Of a stretch of DNA of 24,700 nt, positions 2,052-11,806 are shown in pieces. Origin of the DNA: a virus; IMG/VR virus record IMGVR_UViG_3300024185_000040, positions 1-24,700 of that record; one strand, 5' to 3'. The position numbers and the translations under genes were made by a program. The first letter of the stretch is position 1; each line of letters starts with the position of its first letter. The notes below the pieces were generated by a model. That model saw nothing but the letters and a program-made list of their open reading frames with translations. It did not search any database and was not told the origin of the DNA.

Positions 2052-2074
2052 ATGCACTACCTTATGCACTACCT
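2052..2074 (+). repeat. Left arm-type direct repeat pair (ATGCACTACCT x2)
   Basis: Two copies of ATGCACTACCT at 2052-2062 and 2064-2074, start-to-start spacing 12 bp, followed by AAGCG and then TGGA. The same paired arrangement and the AAGCG extension recur 209 bp downstream next to the integrase. Such pairing is typical of arm-type integrase binding sites. Confidence 0.7.
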
Positions 2075-2161
2075 AAGCGTGGAAAACGCACCTAACTTGG
2101 ACAATGTCCACACAATTCTTGCCCCTAGAAACCAAGGTTTTATAAGGGAAAACGAAATGAG

Positions 2162-2193
2162 ACAAGGGTTTAAGCGATTTAGGAAACCCTTGT
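2162..2193. repeat. Perfect 10-bp inverted repeat, candidate attP core
   Basis: ACAAGGGTTT (2162-2171) and AAACCCTTGT (2184-2193) are perfect inverted copies separated by 12 bases (AAGCGATTTAGG). The element is centred between the two arm-repeat pairs. There is no T-run on either strand, so it is not an intrinsic terminator. As core-type integrase sites the spacer would hold the crossover region; a hairpin with another role is possible. Confidence 0.5.
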
Positions 2194-2259
2194 TCTATCC
2201 GTTGAACTACGGGGGCGAAGCATTTATTATGAATGACTTACGTGATTTGCTGATTTTCC

Positions 2260-2283
2260 ATGCACTACCTCCATGCACTACCT
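2260..2283 (+). repeat. Right arm-type direct repeat pair (ATGCACTACCT x2)
   Basis: Two copies of ATGCACTACCT at 2260-2270 and 2273-2283, spaced 13 bp start to start, followed by AAGCG and then CGGA. The last copy contains an in-frame ATG (2273) that could be mistaken for the integrase start; because it is part of a repeated binding-site-like element, a downstream start is preferred. Confidence 0.7.
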
Positions 2284-2329
2284 AAGCGCGGAGTTTGACA
2301 TGATTAAGAGAATATGTTTGTGTAATAGC

Positions 2330-3382
2330 ATGAAAAAAGGCGTCTGGGAAAAAGTGGAACAGAACATGGTTCGGCATGTGCCGACGGGCAGCTTGTATCT
2401 CAGAGCCAAGGTCGGTGGCAAGCCGATTCGAAAAGCACTTGGTATGGATTCTGTGCGGCCTGCCAAGATTGTGCGTGACCGTATGCTCGCCGAGCTTCGT
2501 GCTGCTGCTGGAACCTTCAGCACTGAGACCGTCACTGTGGGCGATGCACTAGCTCTCACCCGCCAGTGGTATGAGAGCAGGCCGCTATCAGAACAGAAGA
2601 AATCCTCGCTTATCTATCGCAGGCAGATTCTCGACGTGTTGGCAAAGACATTGCCGCAGACCTCACCGCGGCAATGGACGCACGAAACGATTGAGACATG
2701 GTGGCAGAGCCCTATTATAAAGCGGTATTCTGCCACCAGGCGCAATGGAATGCTTGACACGGTGCGGAAGATGTTTGATCTGCTTATTGACCGAGGCGTG
2801 AGAGCAAACGACCCATCAGCGAGGATTAAGCGGGTGCGTGTCATTGTTAAAGCACCGAGCGTGCCTGGGCGGGGTGATCTTGAACGCGTGCTGGCTGACA
2901 TAGAGGCACAGAATAGCGACTATGCCACGGAAGCATCACACATGGTGGCGTTCCTTGCATATTCTGGATGTCGAATTGGCGAGGCTCGGCACGTCAAATG
3001 GGAAGATATCACCGACGAAACCATCACCATCACTGGTGGCACGTCAGGAACTAAGAACCGCGAGATTCGACATGTGCCAATCATTGAGCCTATGCGCGAG
3101 CTAATCGGCCAGATGCGCTATGATGGCGCTGCTGGCAATGTCTTTACGATGCACTCTCCGCGTTTTGCCATAGCGAATGCCTGCAAGCGTTGTGGTGTGG
3201 CACCATTCACGCCACACACATTGAGACACTTGTTCGTGACTGTGTGCCTAGAGTCAGGCGTTGACATACCGACCGTATCTAGATGGGCGGGCCACAAGGA
3301 TGGCGGAGCCTTAATTATGAAAGTCTATGGTCATCTCAGAGATGAACATTCACAAGCCCAAGCCAAGCGTGTGCGGTTTTAA
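2330..3382 (+). CDS. int: Tyrosine recombinase / phage integrase
   Basis: The chosen ATG (2330) gives 350 residues; in-frame starts at 2273 (inside an arm repeat) and 2300 are alternatives. From the start: an N-terminal strand-rich arm-binding region (GSLYLRAKVGGKPIRKALG), a core-binding helical domain (GDALALTRQWYESRPLSEQK through KRVRVIVKAP), and the catalytic domain. Visible catalytic residues, numbered from 2330, are Arg215 (SGCRIGEARH), Lys242 (SGTKNRE), His296 and Arg299 (HTLRH), His322 (WAGHKD) and nucleophile Tyr333 (VYGHLRD), a complete set. It would integrate the phage at attP just upstream. The stop overlaps the stop of the convergent membrane-protein gene by two bases. Confidence 0.95.
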   Translation: MKKGVWEKVEQNMVRHVPTGSLYLRAKVGGKPIRKALGMDSVRPAKIVRDRMLAELRAAAGTFSTETVTVGDALALTRQWYESRPLSEQKKSSLIYRRQILDVLAKTLPQTSPRQWTHETIETWWQSPIIKRYSATRRNGMLDTVRKMFDLLIDRGVRANDPSARIKRVRVIVKAPSVPGRGDLERVLADIEAQNSDYATEASHMVAFLAYSGCRIGEARHVKWEDITDETITITGGTSGTKNREIRHVPIIEPMRELIGQMRYDGAAGNVFTMHSPRFAIANACKRCGVAPFTPHTLRHLFVTVCLESGVDIPTVSRWAGHKDGGALIMKVYGHLRDEHSQAQAKRVRF

Positions 3383-6352: not shown

Positions 6353-8575
6353 CTATGCTGTAATGTCGCCGATGAGATAAACTTTCAAGCCGTTAGCTGT
6401 GCCGTCGTCGATGCTGTCAACGTCGATGGTTAGCGCGTCGCCCTTTGTAAGCTGGTAGTTGCTCGCCGCGCCTGTGAAGGTGCTTGTCTCGGCGTTGTTC
6501 GCACCTGCGCTGATTGAGACAACTGCGTTGAGTATTGTCACGCCCTCGTCTTCAACGTCGATAGTGATTGCGCTTGTGCCACCTGCTGTGCCAACGCTGG
6601 CATACACTCGCTTCACGTTCATGCTCACAGGCATATCCGTGGCGATCTTTTGCCCTGTGGTCAATGCGCTTGTCTCGTCTGATAGTGCGAAGCCCATGAC
6701 GCTCTGAACGCCTAAGTTGGTTCGTGCTGTTGCTGCGTCGCTTGCTCCTGTGCCTCCGTTTGCAACTGGCAAGTCTCCAGTTACCTCGCTGGTTAAGTCA
6801 ACATCATGCAGTGTGAGCTGTTGGTTAGCGTTCTTTGTGATGTAGTTTGGAGATCCTGCAAGAGTAACTGCATCGTGATCTCTGTCACCAACATCTACGC
6901 CGTCAACTGTGCCTGTTACTGTGATGTCGCCTGCAACCTCGAGGCTTACATTGTTTATGAGTTTTAAAGCATCCCCTGTCTGGCGTGAAACTATTGTGTT
7001 TGTTCCATCAACAACAACGGCGGTTTCGATTAAACCATCTTCTGTGCCATTCGTAACATCCGATGTCTTGCCTGTAATCTTGGCATACAACTGATTGCCA
7101 CCAGTATCATTTTTGCCGTCAAATCTAATTTGCCCAAGGTAGTCTCCATCTGCAGGAGATGCGCTATCTCTCTTAAGAGACAATTCTGGAGATGCACCCG
7201 AACCAGTATCTAAGCTACAAATCTGGGTGTTGCCCTCAACATAAAAATCAGTGCCACTCCACGTAAAGTTTGCATCACCCTCAATCGTTCCGTCACCAGT
7301 CCAGACACCAACTTGGTTGTCCACTGGTGTGCCGACTTTGGTGACGTCACCACCGCCTGGTCCTCCGCCTGTTGATGCCTCCCATGCTGCATTGCCAGCG
7401 CCGTCTGATGTGAGAACGTATCCATCCACGCTTGCCTCTGCGTCTATGTCGCTGGCTGTGTGCGTGTGTGCCGTTGGCGTGCGTGCGTCGCTTGAGCTGT
7501 CGAGTGTTGCATCGCCCACAATGGCGTTGAGCTCTGCCAGCGTGTCGATGTCTGCCGATTGCAGTGCTGAGTTTGCCAGCGTGCCCTGTGCTGACGTTGC
7601 GTAGTCTGTTGCATCTGTGGTCGCCGCTGTGCCAAGTCCGAGGTTGGTGCGTGCTGTTGGGATGTCTGCTAAGTCGGAAAGGTTGGCTGTGCTGAGTAAG
7701 TCACCTGTGCCCGATACAGTTGAAGGTGCCCACTCTGTGCCGTTCCACGTTGGAATCTGCCCAACTGCTGCACCGCTCTGATTGATGTGATCCAAGTCAA
7801 TGGTGGCGTATCCTGGCAATGGTGTGGTGCTTGGCACTGTGTCCGGAATCACATCTTGTGATACTGTGACAGACACTTGCAGAACTGTCTCGCCGGCAAC
7901 GTCAGCCGTCGTCCAGCGAACGATCTCCATGGTTGCCTCGACGCTTGTCTCACCGTCCAGCAATGTCAGAATCTCCTCAACGTGTAAATCAAGCGTGCCT
8001 GTCTTGCCTACTCTGCTGGTGATGTTGTCAAGGTTGACGGTAATCGCGCCAACGTCTGCAAGCGATGATGCAAACTCAACATTGAAGTCTGTCGAGCTTC
8101 CTGTGATTGATACGCTGTCGGCTGTGATGCTGGCTAGTCCCTCAAGTTCGCATTTGATCGTGTCCAGCGATGCGTCAAGCGCGATGCTGTTCGTTGTCTC
8201 GCCTGCGATAGTCAGCGTATAGTTGCCAGCAAGTGCGTCAAGTATCTGCACACGCTGAAGCTCGTTGGTCGTGTTAAGCACGCCAGCGCGAATCTCTGTG
8301 ATTGTTGCGCTTGCGCTTGCTAAGTCGTCGGTCAGCTCAATGTATGCGCTTGGTGTTGCGTCTGCCAAGCTACCAACGCCAACGCGTATGCTTTGCCCTG
8401 TAAGCGTGACAGCACGCCAAGGGTTGTCAGCGTCGTTATGGTTCGGCTCAACCAGTTGCACGTTGACCGTTGGTTGGTCGCCGAATACTGGTGCAGGTGG
8501 CGCGCCAGCTTCGGTGCTGTCAAAGCCCGCAACAAGTCTGCGGTTCTCGATGTCGATTATAAGGTTATAGTCCAT
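6353..8575 (-). CDS. Tail fibre / receptor-binding protein, paralogue 2
   Basis: A 740-residue protein. Residues 1-70 (MDYNLIIDIENRRLVAGF; FGDQPTVNVQLVEPN; LTGQSIRVGVG) and about 75-255 (ELQRVQILDALAGNYTLTIA; VSITGSSTDFNVEFASSL; DVIPDTVPSTTPLPGYATID) align with the same segments of the 9314-11806 product. The middle has fibre-type repeats such as NLSDLADIPTARTNLGL and ARTNLGVQSV, typical of phage tail-fibre shafts. The C-terminus (ITIDVEDEGVTILNAVVSIS to VYLIGDITA) is unlike the paralogue's and is probably the receptor-binding tip. It starts in a TAATG overlap with the glycosyltransferase gene. No intramolecular chaperone domain is seen. Confidence 0.85.
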   Translation of the reverse strand: MDYNLIIDIENRRLVAGFDSTEAGAPPAPVFGDQPTVNVQLVEPNHNDADNPWRAVTLTGQSIRVGVGSLADATPSAYIELTDDLASASATITEIRAGVLNTTNELQRVQILDALAGNYTLTIAGETTNSIALDASLDTIKCELEGLASITADSVSITGSSTDFNVEFASSLADVGAITVNLDNITSRVGKTGTLDLHVEEILTLLDGETSVEATMEIVRWTTADVAGETVLQVSVTVSQDVIPDTVPSTTPLPGYATIDLDHINQSGAAVGQIPTWNGTEWAPSTVSGTGDLLSTANLSDLADIPTARTNLGLGTAATTDATDYATSAQGTLANSALQSADIDTLAELNAIVGDATLDSSSDARTPTAHTHTASDIDAEASVDGYVLTSDGAGNAAWEASTGGGPGGGDVTKVGTPVDNQVGVWTGDGTIEGDANFTWSGTDFYVEGNTQICSLDTGSGASPELSLKRDSASPADGDYLGQIRFDGKNDTGGNQLYAKITGKTSDVTNGTEDGLIETAVVVDGTNTIVSRQTGDALKLINNVSLEVAGDITVTGTVDGVDVGDRDHDAVTLAGSPNYITKNANQQLTLHDVDLTSEVTGDLPVANGGTGASDAATARTNLGVQSVMGFALSDETSALTTGQKIATDMPVSMNVKRVYASVGTAGGTSAITIDVEDEGVTILNAVVSISAGANNAETSTFTGAASNYQLTKGDALTIDVDSIDDGTANGLKVYLIGDITA

Positions 8576-9312
8576 TAGGTTGTTAAGAGTTTTTGACGGT
8601 ATTCAGCCACGTTTTCAAGGATTTGTCTGGAAGATTTTTTCATATATGCCTCACCCTTTTCCCGCAATTTGTGAAGGGCGCCCCATGTGTTGCACCTGTA
8701 TGTTGTGGCCTTGCGTTGCAAATAATGAAACTTGCCCCTCGAAGCCAACATTCCACGCAGAGCTGAGTCGCCCCATGCCATATCAAAGAACCATTGTGGC
8801 ATTGGGAACACGTCATCCTTTTTGAAGACGATGCTTGAGTTGGCTGCAAATGAGGGTGTTGTTATGACGTCATCACCATGCCAGTCTTTTTGTGTGCGAC
8901 AGTAGTTGCTCTCGAATCGTTTGTCAAAATACCCATGATACTCAATTTCTGCTTGTGTCACACTTGCAGAATAGCCCTTGTTTTTTTCAAGGAACGAAAC
9001 TTGATCTTGCAACTTGTGTTTACAGTTCCAAAAGTCATCGCCGTCCATTAGTGCTATGTATTCACCTTTAGCCAATGCCAATGATCTGGAAAGGTTGTGC
9101 TTGCCTCCAATTCTCTTGCTGGAGTATGCAACACGGATATTGTCGTAAAATTTGGCATATTGCAGAGCACCGTCCAGCGTTCTGTCATCGCTCACATCGA
9201 CACCAATCACAATCTCGTATTTGAAATTGGTTTTTTGCGCAAGTGCAGAGTCTATCGCGTCAGCCAGCCAACGCTGGTGATTATAGGCGATGATGACGAT
9301 GCTGGCTTTCAT
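8575..9312 (-). CDS. Family 2 (GT-A) glycosyltransferase
   Basis: The ATG at 9312, one base after the fibre stop (TAA-G-ATG), gives 245 residues. The N-terminus MKASIVIIAYNHQRWLADAI and the metal/nucleotide-binding motif MDGDDFW (DxD near residues 90-93) with GEYIALMDGDDFW define a GT2 fold. Later features are WFFDMAWGDSALRGMLASRG and an acceptor-side region with Cys/Arg. It transfers a sugar from a nucleotide-sugar to an unknown acceptor. Position between two tail-fibre genes, with 1-base spacing and a TAATG overlap, ties its expression to them. It may modify phage fibres or the host surface (serotype conversion). No membrane span is seen, so it is cytoplasmic. Confidence 0.9.
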   Translation of the reverse strand: MKASIVIIAYNHQRWLADAIDSALAQKTNFKYEIVIGVDVSDDRTLDGALQYAKFYDNIRVAYSSKRIGGKHNLSRSLALAKGEYIALMDGDDFWNCKHKLQDQVSFLEKNKGYSASVTQAEIEYHGYFDKRFESNYCRTQKDWHGDDVITTPSFAANSSIVFKKDDVFPMPQWFFDMAWGDSALRGMLASRGKFHYLQRKATTYRCNTWGALHKLREKGEAYMKKSSRQILENVAEYRQKLLTT

Positions 9313-9313
9313 C

Positions 9314-11806
9314 TTAGTAGTATTCTGTTGCGTTAGTGGTTTGAACTGTTTGAACACTTGCGACCCAGTTGATGTTCTCGCCCGTGTTACCGACCGCTTG
9401 TAGTCTTAGGCTTGTGCCTGTTGCTGATATAGTGACGTTCCATGCGGCATCGTCTTCATGTATTGCGGTAACTGTTGAAGCAAGCAACAATATGCCATTG
9501 GCGTCTTCATACTCAACTAAGCCCTCGATCTTATACCCAGCGCAGTCTTGTGTGGTGCCTCTGCGTGCAACCACTGTGCCAGTAAATGCCCATGTAGTGT
9601 CTGCTGACATTGTCATCTCTGCACTTGCCCCGTCAAGCGTCATGGTGACTGGTGTTGTGCTTGTTGTCTGGCATCGTAGAACGTAGCTGGCTGCTTGAGC
9701 GTCGCCCGCGGTAGAAAAATTGCCGTTGCGCTGAATGGTGGAGTTTGTGGTGCTTACAACGTCACCGGTGCCATTGGGTGATAGTTCCAGATTGTTATTG
9801 GATAGCGTCACAATAGCGTTACCGTTCGTGTCTAGGTCACCTCCTAGCTGTGGCGTGGTGTCGTTAATAACATCACCGCCAGCAACTGCCTGCCATGAGC
9901 AAGTGCCATCGCCGTCTTCACGTAAATACTTTGTGCCACCAGTCTCACCTGTGGAAAGAATGGCTGTGCCTTCTGGTGTGCCGCTTGGAGCGGCTACCCA
10001 TGAGCAAGTATTGTCACCATCGGCTTGCAGTAGCTTGCCGACTGTTTCACCTGTTGAAAGAATCGCTGTGCCCTCTGGTGTGCCTCCACCGCTCAAGTCT
10101 GCGATGCTTTGAGCTGTTACCGTCTTGAGGTTGTCACTGTCGTCAACGTCTTGCACTAGCACCTTGTCTGTGCCCGCTACGGTGACGCCCGTGAGAGTAG
10201 CTCCGTCAAGAGCTGCTGTGACGTTGGTTTCATCTGTTACATCTGCAAGGGCTTCGATGCCGTCAAGCTTCGTCTCGTCAGCATCAGTGAACGCATTGGT
10301 GTCTGCGTTCGCTTCGTATGCCACCTTGATGCTAGCGTTGTCTAAATCCTTATTCACGACCGTCCAGTCGGCATCAGTGGCTGGGCTGTCTGTCTCTGCG
10401 ATGATAACGTCGCCAATCTCGAGGGCTGTTGTCCAGTATGATGCGGCACCAGAGCCGGCAACGGTGACAGTGTAAGTGTCGCCAGTCTCGGCTGTGCCAC
10501 TTGGGTCGGCACTTGCGTCGTATGCACCTTTGTATTCCATCACACTGCCAAGCCCGCTGATCTGTGTGTCAACGTATGCTTTGACAGATTGCTGGCTTGC
10601 CACCTTCTCAGCGTCGTTGGATGCCATTGTGTCGTCATCGAGGAACCAGGCATTACCCACCAGGCTGGTGTCAGCGTTGAGCGTTGTGGCTGTGCCTAAG
10701 TCGGTAATATCGCTCTCTGTGTGCGTGTGTGATGCTGCCGCGTATGATGGGAATGGTGTGGCACTTGCTGGCGTGTCTGGAATCACATCCTGCCTGCAGG
10801 TGATATTGCCTTGATAAACTGTGTCGCTGGTGCTGTTGCCTGTGTTGTATTTTACAATCTCAAGCGTCGCTGTCGTGCTTGATGCGCCTCCTAAGAGCTC
10901 AAGAAACTGATTGGTGTTGAGGTCAATGCTTCCAGTCTTGCCGATGGCTCCTGTGAGGTTGGCAACGTCAATCGTTGCTGTGCCTACGTTGCCCAAGCTG
11001 GATGCAAATTGTATGGTGAAATCTAAGCTTGAACCAGTCACTGTCACGTTGCCTGCACCGATGCCTGTGATGCCCTCGATGGCTGTGGTGATGTCTGCAA
11101 GTGATGCGTCAACTGCGATGGCTGAGCTTGTGTTGCCTCCGATTGTGATTGCCCACGTGCCAAGGTAAGGATCGCCGTCGATCTCTACGCGTTGAAGCTC
11201 GCTGGTGGTGTCTGTCACGCCGTCTCGGACGACTGTCACCGTGGCTGATGGTGCAGCGATGTCTGTGGTAAGCTCAACATATGCGGCGTTGTCAACCTCA
11301 AGAGTTATCACCTGCACCTCGTTGGTGCTTCCATCGCCCGTGGTGGCTTCGTAGATGTATGCACTGGATGCGGGGAACAGACTGTCAGTCGTTGCTGTGA
11401 TAATTGCTTGATCGCCTGTGCTGTCGAATGTTACTTGATAGCCAGCTGATACTTGTGAAACAGTGCAACCACCAGCCGTCACCATTGATGCTAATGCGTT
11501 GAGTGCTGTGTCAACCTCTGCCGCTGTGGCGTTGTAGTTGAGTGCTGTCGTCGTGTCACCGCTGAAGGTAAGTGTAAATGTTCCGCTTGTAGGGTCGCCA
11601 CCTGGGTTGCCTATTGCCACACGGATGCTGGAGCCTGTCAAATCAACGTAGCGCCAAGGCAGGTCGACACCCTCATCATTGCTCTCAACGAATCGCACGT
11701 TGATGTCTGGCGTGTCACCAAAGACAGCAGATTCTGGCGTGCTTGTGCGCGTGCTTAAAAAGCTCGAAACTAGGCGCTTGTTCTCAACGTCAACAATGTA
11801 GTCCAT
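9314..11806 (-). CDS. Tail fibre / receptor-binding protein, paralogue 1
   Basis: An 830-residue fibre. Its N-terminus MDYIVDVENKRLVSSF matches paralogue 2. An insert of about 110 residues (SGTFTLTFSGDTTTALNYNA; GGCTVSQVSAGYQVTFDSTG) is absent from paralogue 2. A second similar beta repeat follows (GTWAITIGGNTSSAIAVDAS; VTVTGSSLDFTIQFASSL). The shaft has AYVDTQISGLGSVMEYKGAY, SPATDADWTVVNKDL, and a tandem 34-residue repeat beginning GTPEGTAILSTGET. The C-terminal domain (VEYEDANGILLLASTVTAIH to NWVASVQTVQTTNATEYY) is probably the tip. The leader contains the late element at 11810-11829, four bases from the ATG. Confidence 0.85.
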   Translation of the reverse strand: MDYIVDVENKRLVSSFLSTRTSTPESAVFGDTPDINVRFVESNDEGVDLPWRYVDLTGSSIRVAIGNPGGDPTSGTFTLTFSGDTTTALNYNATAAEVDTALNALASMVTAGGCTVSQVSAGYQVTFDSTGDQAIITATTDSLFPASSAYIYEATTGDGSTNEVQVITLEVDNAAYVELTTDIAAPSATVTVVRDGVTDTTSELQRVEIDGDPYLGTWAITIGGNTSSAIAVDASLADITTAIEGITGIGAGNVTVTGSSLDFTIQFASSLGNVGTATIDVANLTGAIGKTGSIDLNTNQFLELLGGASSTTATLEIVKYNTGNSTSDTVYQGNITCRQDVIPDTPASATPFPSYAAASHTHTESDITDLGTATTLNADTSLVGNAWFLDDDTMASNDAEKVASQQSVKAYVDTQISGLGSVMEYKGAYDASADPSGTAETGDTYTVTVAGSGAASYWTTALEIGDVIIAETDSPATDADWTVVNKDLDNASIKVAYEANADTNAFTDADETKLDGIEALADVTDETNVTAALDGATLTGVTVAGTDKVLVQDVDDSDNLKTVTAQSIADLSGGGTPEGTAILSTGETVGKLLQADGDNTCSWVAAPSGTPEGTAILSTGETGGTKYLREDGDGTCSWQAVAGGDVINDTTPQLGGDLDTNGNAIVTLSNNNLELSPNGTGDVVSTTNSTIQRNGNFSTAGDAQAASYVLRCQTTSTTPVTMTLDGASAEMTMSADTTWAFTGTVVARRGTTQDCAGYKIEGLVEYEDANGILLLASTVTAIHEDDAAWNVTISATGTSLRLQAVGNTGENINWVASVQTVQTTNATEYY

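Follow-up and report, generated by a model that had tools for sequence, protein, structure and literature searches.

The attP region beside the integrase gene

The window (the whole 24,700-nt stretch of viral DNA analysed) carries a tyrosine integrase gene and, immediately upstream of it, a region of ~230 bp in which two pairs of an 11-bp direct repeat, ATGCACTACCT, flank half of a tRNA gene. The features on which the analysis draws are as follows.

965–1201 (−): small HTH_17 protein, a candidate excisionase (directionality factor) by putative role only; HTH_17 E 1.4e-05, which narrowly misses the curated cut-off
2052–2062 (+): P-arm direct repeat 1, likely an integrase arm-type site; exact repeat, at the same place in relatives, ~130 bp from the core
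2064–2074 (+): P-arm direct repeat 2, likely an integrase arm-type site; exact repeat, ~115 bp from the core (compare L002 and G017)
2162–2171 (+): phage-side left arm of an inverted repeat; no counterpart in six other att sites, not conserved, possibly chance
2178–2216 (−): attP core, the tRNA-Arg(CCT) 5′ half, which stops just beyond the anticodon loop; 36 nt of it match 59 loci exactly
2179–2185 (−): anticodon loop TTCCTAA, putative crossover (overlap) region; tRNA identity ends here, as do the duplicated halves of relatives
2228–2240 (+): IHF-consensus-like box with one mismatch, between the core and the P′ arm; ~51 bp from the crossover, enriched there in relatives
2260–2270 (+): P′-arm direct repeat 1, likely an integrase arm-type site; exact repeat, relatives have pairs at this place
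2273–2283 (+): P′-arm direct repeat 2, likely an integrase arm-type site; exact repeat; 23 of 80 related loci share its pair spacing of 13
about 2330–3382 (+): tyrosine integrase gene; PF00589 E 1e-14, phrog_1 E 1e-41; start codon predicted from alignment with relatives

The site is flanked on each side by phage genes, which encode an endolysin, portal, head protease, major capsid protein, tape measure and terminase. Among the other genes, the small protein at 753–956 (−) matches phrog_4973 (E 1.8e-19), a phage family of no known function; a family 2 glycosyltransferase gene (PF00535) at 8575–9357 (−) sits between the long virion-region ORFs 6353–8575 and 9314–11806, which are alike at their starts. 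A search of a sequenced-phage collection with the integrase found no close relatives, the only matches being two entries of Staphylococcus phage 42E, with 29% identity over part of the protein.

The four copies of ATGCACTACCT that a sequence-only reading had reported are exact, and the window holds no further exact copies. Allowing one mismatch, there are five matches, against a mean of 0.28 in dinucleotide shuffles, none of 100 of which reached five. The spacing within pairs is 12 bp on the P arm and 13 bp on the P′ arm, and AAGCG directly follows the second copy of both pairs, as also claimed. The reported perfect inverted repeat, ACAAGGGTTT-12-AAACCCTTGT, is likewise present at 2162–2171/2184–2193, midway between the arm pairs. 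By itself it is weak evidence, because ~0.65 perfect 10-bp inverted repeats with a spacer of ≤50 are expected by chance per shuffled window; the window has two.

A tRNA-Arg(CCT) 5′ half as core

Read on the minus strand from 2216 to 2178, the DNA is GCCCCCGTAGTTCAACGGATAGAACAAGGGTTTCCTAAA, the exact 39-bp 5′ half of tRNA-Arg(CCT), and it diverges from the tRNA just beyond the anticodon loop. Rfam and ARAGORN runs on the window left the half unreported, as expected of a half, and there is no complete tRNA on the contig. A 36-nt stretch of the core matched exactly at 59 loci in the genome collection, mostly in Verrucomicrobiota and some in Hymenobacter; ARAGORN found a complete tRNA-Arg(cct) at 54 of these, the rest being displaced halves or cut by the end of the available DNA. 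The full acceptor sequence GCCCCCG is common mainly to the phage half and Akkermansiaceae tRNAs. The host inferred from the tRNA agrees with the portal protein, which is 43% identical to a relative encoded in a genome (G174) of the same family group as the Akkermansiaceae locus L030 described below, and the contig is probably that of a temperate tailed phage of Verrucomicrobiota with an Akkermansiaceae-like host.

Since phage/tRNA identity runs to just past the anticodon loop, the right arm of the inverted repeat (2184–2193) is simply tRNA anticodon-stem sequence. The phage-side arm was looked for in six other att sites of the family and found in none, and the inverted repeat was accordingly rejected as the crossover core. 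The sequence-only reading, which put the core within 2162–2193, is thus partly supported: it was right about the kind of site and wrong about the core, which is the tRNA half at 2178–2216.

Junctions in integrated relatives

In a Verrucomicrobiaceae MAG (G017, contig JAIXPW010000077.1), an integrase 42% identical to the window's adjoins a complete tRNA-Arg(CCT) and two copies of TTTGACCATG (L063). At 71.7 kb away on the same contig (L051), two copies of TTGACCATGTC lie within the element ahead of a displaced tRNA 5′ half; the TTTGACCATG and TTGACCATGTC pairs at the two ends match. Uninterrupted tRNA-Arg(CCT) genes with closely similar flanks occur at L027 and L056. A viral contig (L002) whose integrase is 33–35% identical has two AGAGGGACGACCG-type repeats either side of another tRNA's 5′ half, and the Akkermansiaceae locus L030 has an integrase remnant (57% identical over 60 residues, with an internal stop) divergent from an intact tRNA-Arg(CCT).

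A core common to the host and both junctions was seen in the integrated relatives G017, G177, G071, G137 and G118, and the duplicated segments in integrated relatives begin at the anticodon loop, not at any inverted repeat. Displaced 5′ halves ending at the anticodon loop occur in 11 relatives (G017, G177 and nine tRNA-Met genomes); displaced 3′ halves occur in G071, G033 and G052, of which the last two have the same integrase. Relatives thus split the region into attL and attR at the same point, as had been predicted for prophages with this integrase, and the shared part is a tRNA half. Exact searches of viral contigs for the window's arm pair and of genome contigs for the phage-side core junction found nothing; this phage itself was thus not seen in integrated form.

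Several other loci turned up beside these. In the MAG CSMAG_116, a different, 428-aa recombinase-like ORF (L039:3285-4721) and a complete tRNA-Arg(CCT) are divergently oriented, with a displaced 5′ half on another contig (L021:6562-6856); an unrelated integrase may here use this site, also in 5′-half mode. At L019:390-425 and L057:2879-2914 a tRNA-Arg(CCT) 5′ half runs into non-tRNA DNA, probably the end of another integrated element in each case. One contig carries two displaced tRNA-Met 5′ halves separated by 18 kb (L212 and L223; G375:C46:12036 and 30258); their left flanks are identical, perhaps because elements integrated in tandem or because the flank itself is repeated. Another has complete tRNA-Arg(CCT) genes at two places 57 kb from each other, with the integrase beside one of them (L238 and L241; G069:C37:4766 and 61623); no displaced half is present, so the explanation is either a duplicated gene or an element bearing an entire tRNA. 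Very small elements with this integrase type in tRNA-Met genes, of 6.3 kb (G137:C1:119465-125798) and 7.8 kb (G157:C25:31358-39160), are perhaps satellites or reduced islands.

The arm layout is conserved

Repeat positions relative to the core (bp) recur as follows.

Window: −130/−115, +40/+53
L002: −132/−119, +61/+75
G017: −129/−115, +60/+73
G071: −140/−128, +55/+67; G177 similar

Elsewhere among the att sites, G137 has one arm-repeat match and G118 none. Scoring as a repeat pair any two copies with ≥10/11 identities beside the integrase gene at 80 distinct loci, pairs at offsets of 12, 13 and 14 bp were found at 6, 23 and 1 loci, i.e., 30 of the 80, where shuffles gave ≤0.1 pairs at each offset (<1 expected overall). 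The 11-bp repeat layout is thus conserved beside homologous integrases. Closer relatives have in common a TGACCACC-like repeat theme, of which the window's TGCACTACC looks, by eye, like a variant. An IHF-consensus-like box ~52 bp from the crossover is present in 25% of relatives versus 3.7% of shuffles; that in the window has one mismatch.

Proposed mechanism and comparison with known systems

We take 2052–2283 to be the attP of the integrase at ~2330–3382, with the host tRNA-Arg(CCT) 5′ half as its core and strand exchange within the anticodon loop or at its edge (probability roughly 0.93). The repeats and the tRNA identity can be read directly from the DNA, and the junctions, layout and target from relatives; the protein bound at each site, the exact cut positions and the promoter we infer. 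The integrase would bridge arms and core: its N-terminal domain most likely contacts the four direct repeats, a pair on each arm, and its catalytic domain would act at the core, assisted by an IHF/HU-like bend near 2228–2240. Integration would join the phage 5′ half to the host 3′ half to give a complete tRNA gene divergent from the integrase gene; the 5′ half native to the host would end up, together with its promoter, at the opposite end of the prophage. Transcription of the restored tRNA would then have to come from phage DNA. A simple sigma-70 scan gave no support for an E. coli-type promoter there, such sites upstream of restored tRNAs showing no enrichment over shuffles; host promoters may differ from this type. 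Because the anticodon stem-loop is roughly symmetric, one enzyme type could plausibly use it in either polarity.

The site resembles the lambda-type attP of heterobivalent tyrosine integrases in that arm repeats flank a core, the span is ~230 bp, the integrase gene is adjacent and a candidate IHF-like box lies between the core and the P′ arm. It differs in having two equally oriented repeats per arm and a tRNA half as core, and the integrase is only distantly related. Paired direct arm repeats and tRNA targets are features of P2/HP1-type attP sites, whose layout, with two direct arm repeats on each side, is similar as a layout only; here, unlike there, the element carries the tRNA 5′ half. Islands of the Islander survey that use the anticodon loop (the 'A' site) likewise have an anticodon-loop crossover and, at their ends, a complete tRNA and a displaced fragment (PMC4383910). 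As in the pTN3-like archaeal integrases, the att site is a tRNA 5′ half and the restored tRNA depends on element-side transcription, but those integrases are archaeal and of another kind, whereas this is a bacterial phage integrase with its att outside the gene and between arm repeats (PMC8371274).

Alternative explanations

The perfection of the inverted repeat at 2162–2193 and its place midway between the arm pairs would fit a crossover core with the two arms as core half-sites. With one arm accounted for by the anticodon stem, the other lacking a counterpart in six att sites, and the duplications of relatives starting at the anticodon loop, this is very unlikely. It is scarcely credible that the repeats are due to chance or belong to a coding gene: a 77-aa ORF (2052–2285) does span the whole site, but it had no match in a family search and was taken as chance, and the DNA that bears the same repeat layout next to related integrases is non-coding. 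An attP whose paired repeats bind an excisionase or a regulator rather than the integrase deserves more weight, while still being improbable. Excisionase sites, too, can be direct repeats one helix turn apart, as those bound by Apl of phage 186 are (PMC7498355), and the HTH_17 protein at 965–1201 is a candidate. Against this, the same repeat is paired on both arms at fixed distances, as integrase arm sites would be. Excisionase sites are usually on one arm.

The state of the contig raises a separate question. Its tRNA is only a half, both arms are present and phage genes flank the site, so it is the unintegrated form of the phage or else the internal attP of a tandem lysogen. Tandem insertion leaves an intact attP between copies, and the record is classed as linear, with no terminal repeat when one was looked for, which would suit a contig from a double lysogen. 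There is no complete tRNA on the contig, nor any host-like gene among those examined, which makes this origin decidedly unlikely. For the proposal of a virion or excised circular genome, the unintegrated form is therefore borne out by the half tRNA, both arms and flanking phage genes, and circularity is not.

A clade that mostly replaces tRNA 5′ halves

A profile built from three integrases and run on 387 genomes of the order found integrase relatives in 74. A complete tRNA lay ~75–195 bp 5′ of the integrase gene at 59 of 82 related loci, the targets being Arg, Leu, Met, Thr, Val, His, Pro, Ala and Ser tRNAs. The tRNA was divergent from the integrase gene (5′-half mode) at 46 of the 59, with displaced halves confirming 11 elements, and codirectional (3′-half mode) at 13, proportions that are not independent counts because the 82 loci are mutually related. 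On an integrase tree there are at least 6 changes of polarity and at least 28 of target; this is a quick tree with weak branches, and counting starred branches only, the 3′-half label must have changed at least 3 times. In the Islander survey, 5′ fragments were found in 159 of 3919 islands (4%) (PMC4383910), and a review describes the 5′-half situation as seldom encountered in bacteria (PMC8371274). The habit of this clade, in which 5′-half replacement is the majority mode, is unusual by comparison. The site is thus a known kind of attP with an unusual clade preference for tRNA 5′ halves.

Taken together, these data make it fairly likely that a large clade of Verrucomicrobiales integrases uses the anticodon stem-loop of many tRNAs in both polarities, in most cases exchanging the 5′ half that carries the promoter and so bringing host tRNAs under element-side control, and that polarity and target have repeatedly changed while the arm layout stayed fixed. 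The attP itself is of a textbook type, now with a defined host target, and with its integrase could be the start of an integration tool for Verrucomicrobia. More broadly, the clade makes a question that has been little studied testable: what sets whether an integrase replaces a 5′ or a 3′ half, and how a tRNA stays expressed once element DNA replaces its promoter.
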